The position numbers and the translations under genes were made by a program. This document shows, in pieces, positions 11,303 to 20,502 of a stretch of DNA of 33,243 nucleotides. The notes under the pieces are model-generated. The model ran no database searches. It was not told the DNA's origin and saw only the letters and a program-made list of their open reading frames with translations. The stretch is from a virus. The stretch is taken from positions 1 through 33,243 of IMG/VR virus record IMGVR_UViG_3300005581_000073; one strand, given 5' to 3'. Every line of letters begins with the position of its first letter. Position 1 is the first letter of the stretch.

Positions 11303-12724
11303 ATGGCGGGAATTCAAAAAAGTGGATCGTTAGTAAAAGTACAGCGTGCAGGAAATGATCAGCTTTATGGAAATGGCGCTGATGGTGATGTGACAATCTC
11401 TGGAACAGTCACATTAACTAGTGACAAGTATTATAATTCTTTAACCGTCCCATTGGGAACATTTCTATACACCGCTGGTTTCAGAGTATTTGTTAAAACG
11501 ACAGCCGTAATCAACGGTGTTGTCGGTGTCTGCACACTCACGGGAAACTCTGCTGGCGTATCCAACGGCACCATCACTAGTCCTGGATCTTTAATATCAA
11601 CAGGAACAGCACCAGGCCACACCAACTCTTCAATTACATACCGTTTAGGTGGTGAAGGCGGAGGAGCAACTGCTCCCGGAACTTCAGTTCTTCCTTCTTT
11701 CCTGATTAAAAAATTTGAAGCTTTAACTGGAACAATAATTGATGCCACATACGCGTCTACACCTATTGCGCTTGCTGGTGGTTCAAAAGGAACAACAGGG
11801 ACAGTCGGAACAACCACCCCGATTGTTACGGGAACATGGCCCGGGAAGTCCGGTTCAGTAGGTACGGCTGGCGGACACCCAACAGACAGTGGAACGGTTG
11901 GTGCCGCTGGAGGAAGAGGTGCTACGGGCGCTGATGGAACAACAACTGGGGCTACTACTGGCGCAGGTGGCGCAGGTGGCGCTGGCGCTGCAGGTGGCGC
12001 AGTGGTTATTTTGATTGCTAAAACAATCACAGGAACCGGAACAGTTGCTTCTCTCGGGATGATTGGTACTGTTGGATCTGCTGGTGCTACAGGAAACCCT
12101 GGAACCGCAGGCGCAGCAGGCGCGGCCGCCCCTAACTACACGGTTACTCCGCATTCAGCTTCACCAACGCATCACCATACACCGAATGGACATGTGCATC
12201 CGCATGTGCATACACACCCACATCATACTACTCACCCACATCATTTGGTGTACCCACATCATCACGTAAACCATACGCATACGGTGCATCCGCATCACCA
12301 CTACAACACCGGTTATTCCGACATACATGACCATACCCCTGGTGGGCACCATCATGTGGGTCATCACCATACGACCTATAACCACCACCATACACCAGGT
12401 GGGCATCACCATACACCAGGTGGACATCACCATACGCCCGCTGGACATGCACACCCACATAGCCATGTACAAAGTCACGCACATCATGTTGCCAATCCAA
12501 CTATTCATTATGCAGGTGGTGCAGGCGGTGCAGGCGGTGCAGCTTCTCCTGCGGTGACGGGTGGAACTGGAAAACGCGGTGGTGCAGGCGGGGGCGGATC
12601 AATAATTGTTCTTACTGAAACGACACCATCTGGGCTAAACTATGATGTACGCTCAGGTACGACAGCAGATTCTGATACTTTTTCAGGTTCTTCTGGAACG
12701 ACCTATATACTTTTAAACGCCTAA
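11303..12724 (+). CDS. Glycine-rich tail adhesin with a histidine-rich insert
   Basis: 473 residues. Residues 1-75 match the N-terminal pattern of the preceding gene product. Residues about 180-282 form Gly/Ala collagen-like or polyglycine stretches (G-A-G-G-A-G-G-A-G-A-A-G-G-A-V-V-I-L). Residues 284-402 hold about 48 His in about 119 residues, in H-x-H, H-H-H-T-P and G-G-H-H-H units. Gly-rich sequence (A-G-G-A-G-G-A-G-G-A) and a final strand follow, so the His block is an insert between two glycine-rich parts. H-x-H motifs in the T4 long tail fibre coordinate iron; dense His here suggests metal-stabilised structure or metal-dependent binding, which is inference. It starts two bases after the preceding stop with little ribosome-binding sequence. 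Confidence 0.7.
   Translation: MAGIQKSGSLVKVQRAGNDQLYGNGADGDVTISGTVTLTSDKYYNSLTVPLGTFLYTAGFRVFVKTTAVINGVVGVCTLTGNSAGVSNGTITSPGSLISTGTAPGHTNSSITYRLGGEGGGATAPGTSVLPSFLIKKFEALTGTIIDATYASTPIALAGGSKGTTGTVGTTTPIVTGTWPGKSGSVGTAGGHPTDSGTVGAAGGRGATGADGTTTGATTGAGGAGGAGAAGGAVVILIAKTITGTGTVASLGMIGTVGSAGATGNPGTAGAAGAAAPNYTVTPHSASPTHHHTPNGHVHPHVHTHPHHTTHPHHLVYPHHHVNHTHTVHPHHHYNTGYSDIHDHTPGGHHHVGHHHTTYNHHHTPGGHHHTPGGHHHTPAGHAHPHSHVQSHAHHVANPTIHYAGGAGGAGGAASPAVTGGTGKRGGAGGGGSIIVLTETTPSGLNYDVRSGTTADSDTFSGSSGTTYILLNA
12152..12508 (+). repeat. Histidine-rich coding repeat region
   Basis: An in-frame stretch encoding about 119 residues with about 48 His. The clearest tandem units encode H-H-H-T-P-G-G, repeated around 12388-12440. 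The DNA is built from CAC/CAT runs and short CCA-GGT-GGG type linkers. The frame stays open, so this is coding repeat and not CRISPR. Confidence 0.85.
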
Positions 12725-14086: not shown

Positions 14087-15592
14087 ATGAATAACAAAAT
14101 ATCTTTTGCAATAGTTGGTTCTGGCACGGCAGGATTAGTGGCCGCATTAATGCTAAGAAAAGCTTTTAGAGATGCAGACATAACCGTTATCTCATCTTCT
14201 CAAATTGGGATAGTTGGTGTTGGTGAAGGGTCAACAGAGCATTGGAAAATGTTTATGGAATCTTGTGATATTCCAGTAGAGGAACTAATTGTAAATAGTT
14301 CAGCAACCCATAAAAATGGAATACGATTTGAAAACTGGACTAATCATACTCCTGACTATTTCCATAGCGTTGGTGGAATAGATGAAATTTTTGCTAACGG
14401 ACTTTATGCCTCCTATATGGGTATGATTGAAAATAAACAATTAATTACTAGTCAGACATCAAGTGTTGGATTGGTAACTAACAAAATTGGACGCCACAAT
14501 ATACATAGAACAGTAAATCAATTTCACTTTGATACATATCAACTTAATGACTATTTAATGGGTATATGTTTTAATAGAATGATTAAATTTGTTGAAGGAA
14601 ATGTAGATTCGGTTAATCTAGATTCTGAAAATGGAACAGTCAAATCAGTCAATGTGAATAACGGAACCATGATTGATGCTGATTTTTGGTTTGACGCAAG
14701 TGGTTTTTCCCGCGTAATCATGAATTCCCTAGAGAATACTGAATGGGAATCTTTTTCTCCTTACCTATTGGCGGATTCTGCAATCGCATTCCCAACAGAG
14801 TCTGACCCAAATGGCCAGATACGACCATACACACGCGCCCGTGCGGCATCTTCTGGTTGGATGTGGGAAATACCAACACAAGAGCGGCGGGGAAACGGTT
14901 ATGTATTTTCGTCTGCGCACATATCTGTAGATAAAGCAATAGAAGAAGCTGAGAAGATTAGTGGATACAAGGTTAAAGACAATCCACGAACATTCAAATA
15001 TGATGCTGGTTATCTAAAAAATCAGTGGGTTAAGAATTGTGTTGCCGTTGGTCTTGCAGGTGCTTTTGTTGAGCCACTAGAAGCGACAAGTATTGGTAGC
15101 ACGATAATTTTAATGAAGTCTTTAATGCAAAGCCTTTCTTCATATACTAAAGAGTCTGAAAAAATGCAGACTGCATACAACAAGATGACTAAAGAAACAA
15201 TGAGAAACATACTAACGATGATAAGACTTCATTATGTTTCCGATAGAAGAGATACTCAATTTTGGATAGATCAATCAAACATGCCAATCAATGATGAATT
15301 GCAAGAGCTGATTGATTTATGGTCAGAGCGTCCACCATCTCGGTATGATTCATACAATCAACAACATCTAATGTTTCAAACCCCTCATCTGGCTCATGTA
15401 ATGCAAGGACAAGGACTAATACCTCCTGAACCTTCCTCAATCGCCCTAGACAGACTCAACATAAGAGATATTGTACGTGCGGAAATTGATAAAATCAGAA
15501 ATTCACGACACGCACATGAACTTATTGACCATAGAGTAGGGTTAATGGAAATCAAACTTATTGACGAGGAGTACAGCAATGGAATTCAATAA
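14087..15592 (+). CDS. Flavin-dependent tryptophan halogenase family protein
   Basis: 501 residues, normal family length, with AGGA before the ATG. The FAD-binding G-x-G-x-x-G motif is V-G-S-G-T-A-G at residues 10-16. The family motif W-x-W-x-I-P is seen as W258-M-W260-E-I262-P263. Lysine 76 (A-T-H-K-N-G-I-R-F-E-N-W) lies where the catalytic Lys of PrnA/RebH-type enzymes lies, and E329-P-L-E332-A-T-S-I is the family's second active-site motif. These enzymes use FADH2, O2 and halide to halogenate an indole or another aromatic substrate; the substrate cannot be read here. Similar genes are known in some marine phages. It overlaps the next gene by 14 bases and heads a cassette with two oxygenases. 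The active-site residues look intact. Confidence 0.88.
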   Translation: MNNKISFAIVGSGTAGLVAALMLRKAFRDADITVISSSQIGIVGVGEGSTEHWKMFMESCDIPVEELIVNSSATHKNGIRFENWTNHTPDYFHSVGGIDEIFANGLYASYMGMIENKQLITSQTSSVGLVTNKIGRHNIHRTVNQFHFDTYQLNDYLMGICFNRMIKFVEGNVDSVNLDSENGTVKSVNVNNGTMIDADFWFDASGFSRVIMNSLENTEWESFSPYLLADSAIAFPTESDPNGQIRPYTRARAASSGWMWEIPTQERRGNGYVFSSAHISVDKAIEEAEKISGYKVKDNPRTFKYDAGYLKNQWVKNCVAVGLAGAFVEPLEATSIGSTIILMKSLMQSLSSYTKESEKMQTAYNKMTKETMRNILTMIRLHYVSDRRDTQFWIDQSNMPINDELQELIDLWSERPPSRYDSYNQQHLMFQTPHLAHVMQGQGLIPPEPSSIALDRLNIRDIVRAEIDKIRNSRHAHELIDHRVGLMEIKLIDEEYSNGIQ

Positions 15593-16343
15593 AAAAGTGA
15601 AACCTGGTCAAGTAAGAATAACACCAGAAGACAATCGCTTAATGACAATGCCCCCATATCTTAATGGTCCAACAAGCATGCCTAAATGGTACAGAGCATT
15701 AAGCAAGTCTCGTGGAATGAAGAAGTGCGCAGCAATAAACGACTATTTGTCTCTGGGGATGACAATGCCTCTTTGGAGCAATATCTTTTTTAGACCGTCT
15801 CCAGAAGGTAATTTTTGGGAATCACGAATTGAAAATATGCAACCCCCTCTTCACAGCCTTAAAATTGATGGTTTCAATTATGAACAACATGGGCAATGTC
15901 CAATAACTGGAGTGCGCAAAATTGAAAATGCACAAATTCCTAAAATAGTAACTCCTTGGAGAATAGAAACAGCACCAGGTTGGTCTTGTTTGTTTCTTCC
16001 AGTTCTATGGGAACCAAACAACGACTATGATGTTCTTCCAAGCATTGTGCATACTGATTTTTATCACACTGTAAACATTGTTTTAAATATAAAAACAAAT
16101 ACCGATTTTATGATTCCATATGGAACATCGATGTATCACATTATTCCATTTAAAAGAACAAGTAATTTCAAAGAAATTAAATTTGAAGATGAATCACGTT
16201 TTAAGTATGTTGATGTTACTGGATTTGGATCTGGATTCTTAATGCCAAGCACTGGAACAGCCGGACCATATAGGCGCGCCAAACACAAAATTGATTTAGG
16301 GTTAGAAAACAAAAAATCCAAATGGTGGAATTTTAATAAATAA
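15579..16343 (+). CDS. DUF6065-like protein of the halogenase cassette
   Basis: 254 residues. The ATG at 15579 is preferred over an in-frame TTG at 15561 because GAGGAG lies seven bases before it; it overlaps the halogenase end. The product has a Pro-rich N-terminal region (M-P-P-Y-L-N-G-P, S-M-P-K-W-Y), then P-W-R-I-E-T-A-P-G-W-S-C-L-F-L-P-V-L-W near residue 130. A central strand pair follows (V-L-N-I-K-T-N-T-D-F-M-I-P-Y-G-T) and ends with I-I-P-F-K-R. From memory this recalls the DUF6065 family, whose members occur near halogenases and oxygenases; its biochemical role is not established. I see no HxD iron motif. A partner role in the same modification pathway is inference. Confidence 0.6.
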   Translation: MEFNKKVKPGQVRITPEDNRLMTMPPYLNGPTSMPKWYRALSKSRGMKKCAAINDYLSLGMTMPLWSNIFFRPSPEGNFWESRIENMQPPLHSLKIDGFNYEQHGQCPITGVRKIENAQIPKIVTPWRIETAPGWSCLFLPVLWEPNNDYDVLPSIVHTDFYHTVNIVLNIKTNTDFMIPYGTSMYHIIPFKRTSNFKEIKFEDESRFKYVDVTGFGSGFLMPSTGTAGPYRRAKHKIDLGLENKKSKWWNFNK

Positions 16344-16363
16344 AACAAGGTATTGTCTTGTTT
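16343..16363 (+). other. Hairpin between the DUF6065-like and oxygenase genes
   Basis: AAACAAG (16343-16349) and CTTGTTT (16357-16363) are perfect 7-bp arms around a 7-base loop, directly after the stop codon at 16341-16343. There is no long T-run, so it is a weak terminator at best. The right arm overlaps the -35 box of the promoter at 16353-16381, so an operator role is also possible. Confidence 0.45.
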
Positions 16364-16381
16364 GCAATAAAGAAATATAGT
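16353..16381 (+). promoter_or_regulatory. Sigma-70-type promoter for the first 2OG oxygenase gene
   Basis: TTGTCT (16353-16358), a 17-base spacer and TATAGT (16376-16381) form the best two-box promoter in the window. The start codon at 16390 lies 8 bases after the -10 box, so the transcript would begin at or next to the ATG (leaderless or nearly so). No ribosome-binding site is visible. Confidence 0.6.
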
Positions 16382-16389
16382 TGTTTATT

Positions 16390-16971
16390 ATGAATGAAAT
16401 TTTTCCATCAATCTGGGTCTATGGACAGATATTTCAAAATTCGCAGCTAGTAATTGATTCGCTAGAAAAAGCGATAGATGAAAATGTTTTACTTAATTGG
16501 GTTTATGCAAGTACTGGAAATTATCAAACTGATGGAAGTGTGAAAAACCCTTACAGGAGCAATAAGACCATCTCTCTGCCAAACGATATTAATACTGCCG
16601 ATGGTTCCGGAAATCTTGATTCATTTATTTTTAATCAGGTAACAGAACTAACTAATGAATATTCGTCTCATTTTGGTTTAGGGGGAATGAAAGACGAAGG
16701 ATATTCTGTTTTAAAATATGTTGATGGGGCGGAATATAAACAACATTTTGATTGTGGCGGGGATCACAAAGATCGAGTTGCTTCAATGATTCTGTATTTG
16801 AATGATGATTACGAGGGTGGGGAACTTGAGTTTCCATTTTTTGGAATCAAATACAAGCCCTCTGTCGGTGATGTGATTTTTTTCCCTTCTTCCTATACTT
16901 TTGCCCATATTGCACATCCAGTTACGAGTGGAACAAAGTATGCTCTCGTAACATGGTTGGCCTATGAATAA
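16390..16971 (+). CDS. 2-oxoglutarate/Fe(II)-dependent oxygenase, prolyl-4-hydroxylase type
   Basis: 193 residues from the ATG at 16390; a TTG nine bases upstream is less likely. The fold motifs are clear: H119-F-D121 (iron ligands in Q-H-F-D-C-G), H173 in F-A-H-I-A-H-P-V as the third iron ligand, and K183 (S-G-T-K-Y-A-L-V-T-W) as the 2-oxoglutarate-binding basic residue. The segment L-Y-L-N-D-D-Y-E-G-G-E-L-E-F-P is the prolyl-4-hydroxylase family signature. It would hydroxylate a side chain or small molecule using O2 and 2-oxoglutarate. It overlaps the following, different oxygenase gene by 8 bases. Substrate unknown; in this cassette it may act on the same substrate as the halogenase, which is speculation. 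Confidence 0.85.
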   Translation: MNEIFPSIWVYGQIFQNSQLVIDSLEKAIDENVLLNWVYASTGNYQTDGSVKNPYRSNKTISLPNDINTADGSGNLDSFIFNQVTELTNEYSSHFGLGGMKDEGYSVLKYVDGAEYKQHFDCGGDHKDRVASMILYLNDDYEGGELEFPFFGIKYKPSVGDVIFFPSSYTFAHIAHPVTSGTKYALVTWLAYE

Positions 16972-17881: not shown

Positions 17882-18289
17882 ATGGAACGATTCTGGTATG
17901 GGGCAACCCTTAATAAAGTAATTGATGGGGACACCATCGAGTTAATGGTTGATCTTGGCTTTAATGTTCATCATAAAATCCGCGTTCGTCTATATGGTGT
18001 GAATACCCCAGAATCACGTACTAAAGATTTGGCCGAGAAGGCTATGGGGCTGAAAGCTAAACAATTTACTCAAGAATGGTTGACGAACCATAAGTGGGTA
18101 TTTGTTAACACCATCCCAGACAAGAACGATAAATACGGCCGAGTCTTGGCTCGCATATTTTCTTCCGATGATATTAATAACCCGACTACCGCCTGTCTAA
18201 ACATAGACATAATAGAATCTGGACTAGCCAGAGAATACTATGGCGTTGGCGACAAGACTTGGGATGAATACAAGAAGGAAACAAAGTGA
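17882..18289 (+). CDS. Thermonuclease (staphylococcal-nuclease-like)
   Basis: 135 residues, about one SNase domain with no signal peptide, so it acts in the cytoplasm or virion. Family motifs: V-I-D-G-D-T-I-E-L at residues 13-21, R36-L-Y-G-V-N41-T-P-E44 (Arg and Glu correspond to catalytic Arg35 and Glu43 of the staphylococcal enzyme) and D-K-Y-G-R87-V-L-A (second catalytic Arg). The Asp40 calcium ligand position is Asn41 here, a substitution seen in other family members. The ATG seems leaderless, five bases after an extended -10 box. The stop overlaps the next start (TGATG). In phages it may cut host DNA or recycle nucleotides; the target is not known. Confidence 0.85.
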   Translation: MERFWYGATLNKVIDGDTIELMVDLGFNVHHKIRVRLYGVNTPESRTKDLAEKAMGLKAKQFTQEWLTNHKWVFVNTIPDKNDKYGRVLARIFSSDDINNPTTACLNIDIIESGLAREYYGVGDKTWDEYKKETK

Positions 18290-18654
18290 TGTCAGAAGAA
18301 AAATCAATATTTAGTATGATGATGGCCGGGGTCCCAGTAAGAATCATGGACAGAACCGAAGCTTTCCAGCATCCTCTTGCTCCTGAAGAAAAAGAGTTAG
18401 CAGACGCCCTTGTTGGGATTGCCGAAAGATATGGCAAGTTTAATGAAGACAAAAAAGGAATCTGGGCAGGCTACGACGATGCTTCCAGTAATACTGTTGC
18501 AAGAATTGGTGTTAAGTGCGCAAATTGTGTTTTGTATGTGGGTAACGGACAGTGCCGTATAATCCTTCAAACCGTTGAACCTGAAGGAAAATGTAGATTT
18601 GCTGTCATTCCTGATGGTGTCGTACAAGCGACAATGAATGACCAGATTATTTAA
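18289..18654 (+). CDS. Small Cys-motif protein, related to 19437-19883
   Basis: 121 residues from ATG 18289 (one-base overlap with the thermonuclease; AAGGA ten bases upstream). A GTG three bases earlier is less likely. The helical N-terminal half ends before V-K-C-A-N-C-V-L-Y-V, then G-Q-C-R-I-I-L and G-K-C-R-F-A-V-I-P-D-G. Four Cys form a possible metal- or Fe-S-binding site. A related C-x-N-C-x-L-[YF]-V core appears in 19437-19883. In phages, short proteins with this pattern occur near structural genes. Function unknown. Confidence 0.65.
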   Translation: MSEEKSIFSMMMAGVPVRIMDRTEAFQHPLAPEEKELADALVGIAERYGKFNEDKKGIWAGYDDASSNTVARIGVKCANCVLYVGNGQCRIILQTVEPEGKCRFAVIPDGVVQATMNDQII

Positions 18655-18666
18655 TAAGGAAATAGA

Positions 18667-19437
18667 ATGACATTTTTTAATGAACTCTTAGGAGAAATTA
18701 AAGGTTTTAGGTTTGAGAAAGACCTCAAAGCTCTTGGTAAACCAATAAGACCCAGAGGTCCTGATATTCCATTAGATGGTGATGGTGATGGTTTCGTTGT
18801 TGATCCAATTACTGGAGACGACAATATTCCTTTTGTTCCCGATGTTGTTCCAGGGTCAATATCAATTAGAAAAAACCACAAACCAGCACCAGCAATGGTT
18901 GATAAGTGGCAAAAAGACTTAGAAGACATGACACCTGTCTGGCGCGAAGATCCAATGAAAGCAGCTGATGGGTCGTATTATGACTGGGAATGGGCTGATG
19001 AAACTGTCTACAAACTTAGTCAAAATCCGGATGGTTCTACGCTTTCTAAATATGACTTAGAGGGCATAAAGGCTCACTACAAAAAAGAAGTTGATGACCA
19101 TAATCGCCGTGATCCGGAGAATAAGAGTAAATCTGAATTGGCTGAATCGCAAGCAGCGCTTGATGAGGTTCAAAAAATGATTGACGATAAGCCTCAAACC
19201 GACAAACGAACTCCTGATCAAAAGTTAGATGCACTATTTTTTCAAACAAGAAAAGATAAAACTGGCCCTCCTGGAAAACAAGTCAGAACAAGAGAAAATG
19301 ACCGTCAAATACAACAAGATGCTGACAATATAAAATTTCTTCAAGAGCAATTAAAGCGCTTTGAGAAAGACCCAGAAAAGACAAAGCTAATCAACGAATC
19401 AATATCTCACCTTCAAGAATTCAAGAAGAAGAAATAA
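18667..19437 (+). CDS. Protein with shared N-terminal leader and an EF-hand-like loop (possible internal virion protein)
   Basis: 256 residues after AAGGA. Residues 1-17 (M-T-F-F-N-E-L-L-G-E-I-K-G-F-R-F-E) match the leaders of the next two products in pattern and length. Residues 36-42 (D-G-D-G-D-G-F-V-V-D-P) look like a calcium-binding EF-hand or dockerin-type loop. The rest is highly charged: Asp, Glu and Lys with helix-forming repeats (K-E-V-D-D-H-N-R-R, I-Q-Q-D-A-D-N-I-K-F-L-Q-E-Q-L-K), ending in a run of Lys. No enzyme domain is seen. Charged, helical, with a leader ending in F-R-F-E, it could be an internal head or scaffold-type protein; this is inference. The stop overlaps the next start. 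Confidence 0.7.
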   Translation: MTFFNELLGEIKGFRFEKDLKALGKPIRPRGPDIPLDGDGDGFVVDPITGDDNIPFVPDVVPGSISIRKNHKPAPAMVDKWQKDLEDMTPVWREDPMKAADGSYYDWEWADETVYKLSQNPDGSTLSKYDLEGIKAHYKKEVDDHNRRDPENKSKSELAESQAALDEVQKMIDDKPQTDKRTPDQKLDALFFQTRKDKTGPPGKQVRTRENDRQIQQDADNIKFLQEQLKRFEKDPEKTKLINESISHLQEFKKKK

Positions 19438-19883
19438 TGGCAATCTGGGAAGACTATACGGGATCAATTGTGGGGTTCAGATTTGAATCAAAAGCAGATA
19501 AAGAAAATTGTCCTCGCGCAACTCAAGACATTGGTGTAAATATTAAGAATCGCCAAAAAGCGATAGAGACTGCCGACTACGGCCCTTTAAACCCCAAAGA
19601 AGCAAACGATGCTTTCTGGAAGAAAAAAGGTGATCGTTGGGACGTTTCTCCAGAAGAAGCGAAGAAGCAAAAGTGTGGCAACTGTATTCTCTTTGTTCGT
19701 TCTCCACGAATTCTTAAATGTATTGAGGGCGCTCTCGGCAATGAGTCAGGTTCTACTTGGGACATCGTTGATGCTGGTCAAATAGGATACTGCGAAGCCT
19801 TTGACTTTAAGTGCCACTCAGAGCGCACATGTGATGCTTGGGTTGTTGGAGGCCCGACTGTTACAGACGGTAAAGAAAAGTAA
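19437..19883 (+). CDS. Cys-motif protein with the shared N-terminal leader
   Basis: 148 residues. Leader: M-A-I-W-E-D-Y-T-G-S-I-V-G-F-R-F-E (residues 1-17). Body: K-C-G-N-C-I-L-F-V at residues 81-89, then C-I-E-G, Y-C-E-A-F-D-F-K-C-H, and T-C-D-A-W-V-V-G-G-P near the end; eight Cys in total. The cysteine part resembles small high-potential-iron-sulfur-like or zinc-binding phage proteins; I recall the pattern but not a proven ligand. The C-N-C core is shared with the gene at 18289, and the leader with 18667 and 19891. So this product joins the two small families of the block. Confidence 0.68.
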   Translation: MAIWEDYTGSIVGFRFESKADKENCPRATQDIGVNIKNRQKAIETADYGPLNPKEANDAFWKKKGDRWDVSPEEAKKQKCGNCILFVRSPRILKCIEGALGNESGSTWDIVDAGQIGYCEAFDFKCHSERTCDAWVVGGPTVTDGKEK

Positions 19884-19890
19884 CCACATA

Positions 19891-20502
19891 ATGCTTTGGA
19901 AAGATTATAAAGGAAGCATCAAGTCTATAAGATTTGAAAATAGTGAAGATTCTTTTGCTCATAACGAAAAATCATTAAAAGAATGGTTTAAGGAAAAATG
20001 GGTTGACTTGTCTAGACCTAAAAAAGACGGTGGCTTTGAGCCTTGCGGTAGGGACGACGCAGACAAAGGCAAATACCCTAAATGTGTTCCGGCTTCCAAA
20101 GCAAGCAAAATGACTGCTGAAGAAATCCGTTCTGCTGTGTCTAGAAAAAGAAGAGCAGAATCAACTCAAGTCCGAGACGGCAACAAACCCATCAATGTCT
20201 CAACAGACAAAAAAGACGGTTCTGATATTGAAGAAAAATCAGCCATACCCACCGACGCTGTTTTGTATGCGCGGGTAAAAGCGGAAGCAAAAGCCAAATT
20301 TGATGTTTACCCTTCTGCTTATGCCAACGCCTGGCTGGTTAGGGAGTACAAGAAAAGGGGTGGCGGTTATCGTTCTGAAAAGGCAGATAACGGCGAATAC
20401 GAAGAGTCGCTTCAAGACCTCACGGAAATTCAATTGTCTGATTTCTTTGACTGGGTTGATGAAAACGATAAGACTGCTAGGCTTCAAGTTCCTAACCCAT
20501 AG
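19891..20502 (+). CDS. DUF5872-like phage protein with the shared leader
   Basis: 203 residues from the ATG at 19891; an upstream in-frame start at 19801 would overlap the previous gene by 83 bases and is rejected. The leader is M-L-W-K-D-Y-K-G-S-I-K-S-I-R-F-E. Residues about 30-75 carry W-F-K-E-K-W-V-D-L-S-R-P-K-K-D-G-G-F-E-P-C-G-R and Y-P-K-C-V-P-A-S-K-A, a signature I associate from memory with DUF5872. The C-terminal part contains L-Y-A-R-V-K-A-E-A-K-A-K-F and P-S-A-Y-A-N-A-W-L-V, its usual second element. The family is widespread in marine phages and has no settled function. The ribosome-binding site is weak. Confidence 0.72.
   Translation: MLWKDYKGSIKSIRFENSEDSFAHNEKSLKEWFKEKWVDLSRPKKDGGFEPCGRDDADKGKYPKCVPASKASKMTAEEIRSAVSRKRRAESTQVRDGNKPINVSTDKKDGSDIEEKSAIPTDAVLYARVKAEAKAKFDVYPSAYANAWLVREYKKRGGGYRSEKADNGEYEESLQDLTEIQLSDFFDWVDENDKTARLQVPNP

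Follow-up and report, generated by a model that had tools for sequence, protein, structure and literature searches.

A shared N-terminal leader on unrelated phage module proteins: a candidate prohead-loading peptide

The window analysed here, the 33,243-base IMG/VR virus record IMGVR_UViG_3300005581_000073, contains three neighbouring genes whose products begin with similar short leaders ending in R-F-E (hereafter tags), each followed by a different body. We found that this tag occupies the N-terminus of proteins of six body types, that selection acts on it as a peptide, and that several of the same bodies are covalently built, in related phages, into the prohead protease or a large protein encoded next to the capsid gene. 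On these sequence comparisons, the tag is probably a transferable N-terminal prohead-loading peptide, functionally similar to the capsid-targeting sequence (CTS) of phage T4 or to the signal of the phage P1 protein DarB. The leaders, which a preliminary description of the sequence had reported, start at 18667, 19437 and 19891; the tags and their proteins are the following.

18667..18717, + strand: tag 1, MTFFNELLGEIKGFRFE, a variant without W and Y
18667..19437, + strand: tagged protein 1, 256 aa, with an acidic DGDGDGF (EF-hand-like) loop at 18775-18804 and then a charged region
19437..19487, + strand: tag 2, MAIWEDYTGSIVGFRFE
19437..19883, + strand: tagged protein 2, 148 aa, a Cys body, with relatives in 27 viral loci
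19891..19938, + strand: tag 3, MLWKDYKGSIKSIRFE; a similar tag is found on a DUF6321 protein (locus L151) and on a DUF5872-DUF6321 protein (L183)
19891..20502, + strand: tagged protein 3, 203 aa, with DUF5872 (Pfam E 3e-15, best stretch 20248-20385)

The Pfam match bears out the DUF5872 label initially given to protein 3. A mechanical list of open reading frames begins this frame at TTG 19801; we preferred ATG 19891 because the homologues in L151 and L183 likewise open with ML followed by such a tag. In several phage records, relatives of protein 2 carry the label "high potential iron-sulfur protein"; the name comes from those records, and "Cys body" is used here. Proteins 1 and 2 had no significant Pfam or PHROG match, and over its length protein 1 matched only three loci, all 99% identical. 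In a near-identical longer record of 88,775 bases (G001), matches at 99% were found for protein 1, protein 2 and the DUF5872 portion of protein 3.

N-terminal position of the tag and exchange of bodies

Scanning IMG/VR with the DNA pattern for W..Y.G.I..[FILV]R[FI]E returned 49 matching stretches. Together with two places in the window, the 52 places in these stretches make 54, representing 34 distinct tag-plus-body starts, because near-identical phages from different samples account for several contigs. The motif is N-terminal in every one of the 54 places, a start codon putting the last residue of the tag at position 16-27. Looser patterns without W and Y added the form found on window protein 1 and six matches elsewhere (L194, L197-L201), of which five lack a nearby start codon and one lies inside a long frame, 476 open codons preceding the motif; these six look like chance matches. 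As a control, the main pattern was run on 257 Gb of bacterial and archaeal genomes and gave 13 matches, 10 without a start codon within 13 codons upstream and three with one, these three being preceded by 27, 48 and 103 open codons. With a 23-residue tag query, tblastn, a weak tool for queries so short, found no match among 50,697 phage records.

We then scored the N-termini of 1,947 genes from 16 related records with a position matrix trained on the tags, tag 1 being taken as its lowest-scoring training tag (28.7). Fifteen real N-termini scored at least 28 and none fell between 8 and 28; not one of 116,820 shuffled N-termini of these genes reached 20 (maximum 15.8). Across 56 tagged proteins, the third residue from the end of the tag (P3) is Arg in 53, Val in two and Lys in one, and the final Glu is present in 54, the other two tags ending in Val or Leu. 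The codons of the constant residues vary freely: all six Arg, all four Gly and all three Ile codons occur. That W, Y, G, I and R hardly vary although their synonymous codons are scrambled demonstrates selection on the peptide and not on the DNA.

The 56 tagged proteins are sequence-distinct, a count that includes truncated and near-identical copies of some genes, and fall into six body types: Cys body (35), C4 (7), DUF5872 (6), acidic DxDG (6), DUF6321 (1) and RYW (1). A search for the leader on other bodies, suggested in the preliminary description, was thus productive. C4 is a four-Cys module that also forms the gene at 18286 of the window; RYW is a name given here after a conserved tripeptide. 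Sorting was rule-based and left five proteins as "other", which were assigned by eye, two to the Cys body and three to C4. The acidic type pools, on alignments, three copies of window-type protein 1 with the proteins of L154, L155 and L184, in which a W..[YF] form of the tag stands ahead of a protein-1-like body. Two or more tagged proteins share a locus in the window, in L001 (the same phage), in L155 and in L181, and the phage of record G005 (L270) has two. Ferredoxin was considered as a seventh body and rejected: the matrix hits upstream of a ferredoxin gene (L234, L251, L257) scored about 15 and fell in translated upstream DNA, since the start-site rule places the start of 31 of 32 ferredoxin frames at the conserved N-terminus of ferredoxin.

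In the Cys-body family, conservation is no higher in the tag than in the body (mean column entropy of 1.04 bits for the tag vs 0.83 for the body, 32 sequences), and the case therefore rests on body exchange. The expectation that the leader should be more conserved than the bodies thus has a mixed outcome: it fails inside this family, and across the six body types the tag is the sole shared part. The DNA of L151 and L183 matches over 200 upstream bases, the tag and the linker, after which L151 lacks the in-frame stretch that holds DUF5872; the tag was thus retained through a change of body. The match between window protein 3 and L183 begins only at the start codon, and the three tagged genes of the window have dissimilar upstream DNA, as judged by eye. 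When the tag label is mapped onto a tree of 50 Cys bodies, six changes are required, three of which are forced by well-supported branches.

Modules fused to the prohead protease or beside the capsid gene

The 16 related records, all of which may be fragments, were examined for their head genes, eight of them over the whole length. They contain 17 tagged frames, every one a module gene. The capsid protein of these phages is of HK97 type (Phage_capsid 7.7e-41 in L004). With gaps and some exceptions, the head genes follow the order portal - S78 protease - (p927) - RYW - p673 - CSGAH - capsid protein - DUF6321 - SNase - tagged gene, p673 and CSGAH being names given here. The tagged gene lies within this head block in most relatives whose head genes are covered, and the SNase gene is its frequent upstream neighbour. 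In the window, two genes precede tagged protein 1.

17882..18289, + strand: staphylococcal-nuclease-like protein (Pfam SNase 6.6e-13)
18286..18654, + strand: free C4 module (four-Cys), with its own leader instead of the tag

A prohead protease, which the preliminary description had proposed to look for, is present in the near-identical relative of the window: that of G001 is a Peptidase_S78 (4.8e-12). No Peptidase_S77, the gp21 type expected from the T4 parallel, was found in 14 related records at E up to 1 (the records may be fragments). The G001 protease carries a RYW module sharing 63% identity over 176 aa with the RYW protein that is free and tagged in G005. The C4 module, tagged in seven distinct relatives, lies inside the S78 protease polypeptide in nine of the 14 protease-showing records; in the other five it is free in G001, G015 and G024 (tagged in G024), fused to a Cys body in G016, and was not found in G025. 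None of the 14 records, which may be fragments, shows C4 both inside and outside the protease polypeptide.

In locus L033, a single protein of 1080 residues encoded directly upstream of the capsid gene aligns with all three window bodies. The identities are 77% over 176 residues for protein 3, 66% over 134 for protein 2 and 40% over 53 for the acidic loop region of protein 1 (L033 residues 493-545), the last being a short and weak match. The bodies, said in the preliminary description to differ completely, are indeed unrelated to one another, yet counterparts of all three sit in this one polypeptide. Another phage group has DUF6321 with DUF5872 or a Dps-like domain behind an S78-like region, which scores 20.8 and 19.1 of the 21 bits required, just under the Pfam cut-off. 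A Dps/ferritin-like protein at L061:562-2907 (- strand) is fused behind DUF6321 and a protease-like region. In three records, the S78 protease forms the N-terminus of polypeptides of 2,916-4,736 residues with ArdC-N, MPTase-PolyVal metallopeptidase and UvrD helicase domains.

L136:10750-19497, - strand: S78 protease polypeptide of G011
L123:6121-16227, - strand: S78 protease polypeptide of G003
L349:1472-15679, + strand: S78 protease polypeptide of G016

The relation between tag and fusion is clearest for the Cys body. We used a capsid-clade set made of the best 80 of 426 loci (flanks of at most 10 kb, some near-copies); another family search took the best 80 of at least 580 matches, and families were searched only within the retrieved loci and records. 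The capsid-clade set contains 41 Cys bodies, of which 28 are tagged (one of these also being fused to DUF6321); the other 13, without a tag, are in every case fused to DUF6321 or C4. Four distinct Cys bodies are both untagged and free-standing, all of them from loci outside this set.

Prohead loading weighed against other roles

Prohead targeting is the best explanation because the tag is a transferable peptide on bodies that are partly fused, in relatives, to the protease or to a capsid-adjacent protein, and because its genes usually lie in the head block. The earlier idea of a targeting or processing tag is thus supported by comparison as far as targeting is concerned; its detailed T4 parallel, in motif and protease, does not. 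In the mechanism that we infer, the tag would bind a component of the assembling head late in infection, and the small body behind it would be carried into the capsid and packaged alongside the DNA, probably to be ejected into the host infected next. Cys body, C4, DUF5872, DUF6321, RYW and acidic DxDG would form an interchangeable set of modules. A module lying covalently within the prohead protease or the large capsid-adjacent protein would not need the tag. As observed, the tag is present on free Cys bodies of this phage group and on only a part of the free C4, RYW and DUF6321 proteins, most of which bear other leaders that perhaps do the same job. An anti-defence or DNA-binding function of the small bodies is no more than a guess.

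Known head-cargo systems offer partial parallels. The T4 CTS is described as a short N-terminal peptide on the internal proteins IPI-IPIII and on Alt, and related phages vary their internal proteins and have other CTS-like proteins (PMC9026906, PMC7411985). Like it, the tag is an N-terminal peptide of about 10-20 residues common to different bodies, here in all 54 places and on six bodies. It differs in sequence, ending in R-[FI]-E without the L/I-X-E site given as the T4 gp21 cleavage motif (PMC9026906), in the protease of its phages (S78, not S77) and their HK97-type capsid protein, and in that fusions of its bodies to head or neighbouring proteins also exist. Because we looked for both the L/I-X-E site and an S77 protease and found neither, the tag is not a T4 CTS by sequence. 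In P1, an N-terminal signal of more than 9 and at most 30 residues is reported to direct the anti-restriction protein DarB into a capsid likened to that of HK97, and the authors state that no consensus is common to the N-termini of the Dar proteins (PMC9024508). The tag likewise ends within 30 residues (16-27) in phages with an HK97-type capsid protein, but it is a conserved motif across six body types, and the likeness considered here is one of description.

Polyvalent proteins, known from phages and conjugative elements, are described as multi-domain proteins thought to be packaged and injected, with ArdC-N and MPTase-PolyVal among their types (PMC5512222). Both domains, in a multi-domain setting, occur in the protease polypeptides of three records, which fits head cargo bound for the next host. 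The tagged proteins differ in being small and lacking the multi-domain build; six of them (window proteins 1-3 and those of L154, L160 and L270) have no known enzyme domain at the Pfam cut-off, DUF5872 being the most that was matched. In Actinomycetia phage DSL-LC01 (OQ999401), C4 is the C-terminal part of a protein labelled "capsid maturation protease" and a Cys body gene lies between portal and protease; unlike in the window, the tag was not found there by exact pattern in the record or by matrix in 40 kb.

The preliminary description had likened the end of the leader to the hydrophobic-x-Glu site of T4, and we reject T4-type processing in that form on motif and protease: P3 is Arg in nearly all tags, two tags lack the final Glu, no L/I-X-E is present and S77 was found in none of the 14 records, which may be fragments. 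A modified version, in which the S78 prohead protease would cut after the final Glu and free the body inside the head, would make sense of the Glu that closes 54 of 56 tags, of the variable linker behind it and of the S78 protease encoded by the same phages. We nevertheless regard such a propeptide as unlikely, given the Arg where T4 has Leu or Ile, the two tags ending in Val or Leu, the 14 records in which no S77 was found and the absence of any tag-like sequence from the capsid protein consensus, the expected substrate of this protease. A role unrelated to the virion, with the tag docking its proteins onto an intracellular partner such as the host polymerase or a replication or late-gene complex, would agree with the place of the window phage's genes, away from portal and protease and downstream of halogenase and oxygenase genes, and with the lack of the tag on most free C4 and RYW proteins. 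It appears improbable to us, since all 17 tagged frames are module genes, several such modules are joined in relatives to the prohead protease or form part of a capsid-adjacent protein, and most relatives with covered head genes have the tagged gene in the head block. Finally, the tag could be inert, a by-product of recombination that captures new bodies behind a single conserved gene start: bodies change while the position of the tagged gene near the SNase gene is often the same, and L151 and L183 share upstream DNA together with the tag. The scrambled synonymous codons around nearly constant residues, the unlike upstream DNA of the three window genes and the match of protein 3 to L183 from the start codon only make this very improbable.

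Several observations weigh against prohead loading itself. The tagged genes of G001, at 50.7-52.6 kb, are separated by about 38 kb from portal and protease (8.8-13.2 kb), and this contig does not include the capsid gene. Among distinct frames standing alone, some of them truncated, untagged ones outnumber tagged ones for C4 (20 to 7), RYW (40 to 1), DUF6321 (67 to 1) and DUF5872 (10 to 5), many of the untagged free DUF6321 proteins bearing instead a second leader described below. Within 10-kb flanks, 51 of the best 80 capsid-clade loci show no tagged module, and in the sequence covered of G015 and G016 no tag was found by matrix or by exact pattern, a search that also missed the tag of G008. 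Several untagged Cys-DUF6321 fusions open straight with the body, so that, supposing these are head proteins, their placement must depend on something besides the tag. The tag is not a copy of a segment of the capsid protein, whose consensus (59 sequences) scores at best -3.3 with the matrix, and the AlphaFold2 model of protein 2 is poor (predicted local distance difference test, pLDDT, of 52). The model of protein 3 has a pLDDT of 70, with the body partly confident and the tag region at about 50, a value compatible with a flexible peptide without being evidence for one. This model had no PDB match at E 0.001 or better, and the family profile of protein 2 found nothing better than E 0.07 among PDB sequences.

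Other leaders, hosts and implications

The tag is not the only leader in these phages. A matrix for a helical leader B, built on 17 N-terminal helices of DUF6321 proteins, matched 31 of 4,842 N-termini vs 12 of 1.03 million internal windows. Five matches are on bodies other than DUF6321 (Dps-like 2, Cys body 2, DUF5872 1) and all 31 fall on genes of the module set, which supports the view that leaders are exchangeable parts in these phages. Dps/ferritin-like proteins with this second helical leader are encoded in the head block at L004:10453-10992 and L011:7417-7956. By eye only, the tag resembles a DUF6321 protein segment, YDEYYGS..V. Many free C4 proteins share yet another leader, ending in G.PVRIV (for example MLMSGVPVRIV); it was seen by eye on C4 bodies only, with no dedicated search made.

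In Gordonia phage Chidiebere, genes 26 and 27 (L358:1731-5734) are adjoining head-block genes with different bodies, a VIP2-like ADP-ribosyltransferase and a helix-turn-helix protein, and by eye have the common N-terminal block VRD.E[YF]WG.PYGTPITPG. A 45-residue query of this block matched 26 phage records, 13 of them Gordonia records with two matches apiece, with weak matches (E 0.004-0.01) to mycobacteriophage proteins, some labelled as capsid maturation protease-MuF fusions. Gene 11 of Brevibacterium phage Cantare (L357:7662) is similar to the block by eye. The block is possibly another head leader, in culturable phages. It is tempting to think of a sorting code for head cargo, and we put this forward tentatively: tag A (W..Y.G.I.GFRFE), helical tag B, carried by DUF6321, Dps-like, Cys-body and DUF5872 proteins, and perhaps, as a third member, the block of the Gordonia ADP-ribosyltransferase and its neighbour, with modules moving between protease-fused and free tagged passengers.

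Upstream of the SNase gene, the window encodes at 14087-16971 a tryptophan halogenase (Pfam 2.4e-105), a gene without Pfam match and a 2OG-Fe(II) oxygenase (5.6e-16). A 473-aa protein with long histidine-rich repeats (HHHTPGG-like) and no Pfam match is encoded at 11303-12724, downstream of a tail-fibre-like gene. Actinobacteria are the probable hosts, because the closest annotated relative of protein 2 belongs to DSL-LC01 and the best-listed capsid proteins in named phages, 45-52% identical, are those of Brevibacterium and Gordonia phages. The authors of the metagenome-assembled DSL-LC01 genome call it "highly likely" an actinobacteriophage (PMC10611076).

A literature search, with most subscription journals outside its coverage, turned up no account of the leader in titles and opening lines of abstracts; DUF5872 appeared in a single paper and DUF6321 in none. 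If the proposed role is correct, the tag would be a capsid-loading signal readable from sequence alone in HK97-type phages, probably those of actinobacteria. It would predict which unknown phage genes encode head cargo and would supply a peptide ready for use in loading such heads with proteins. It would also suggest why DUF5872 and DUF6321 travel together, namely as alternative passengers of the head.

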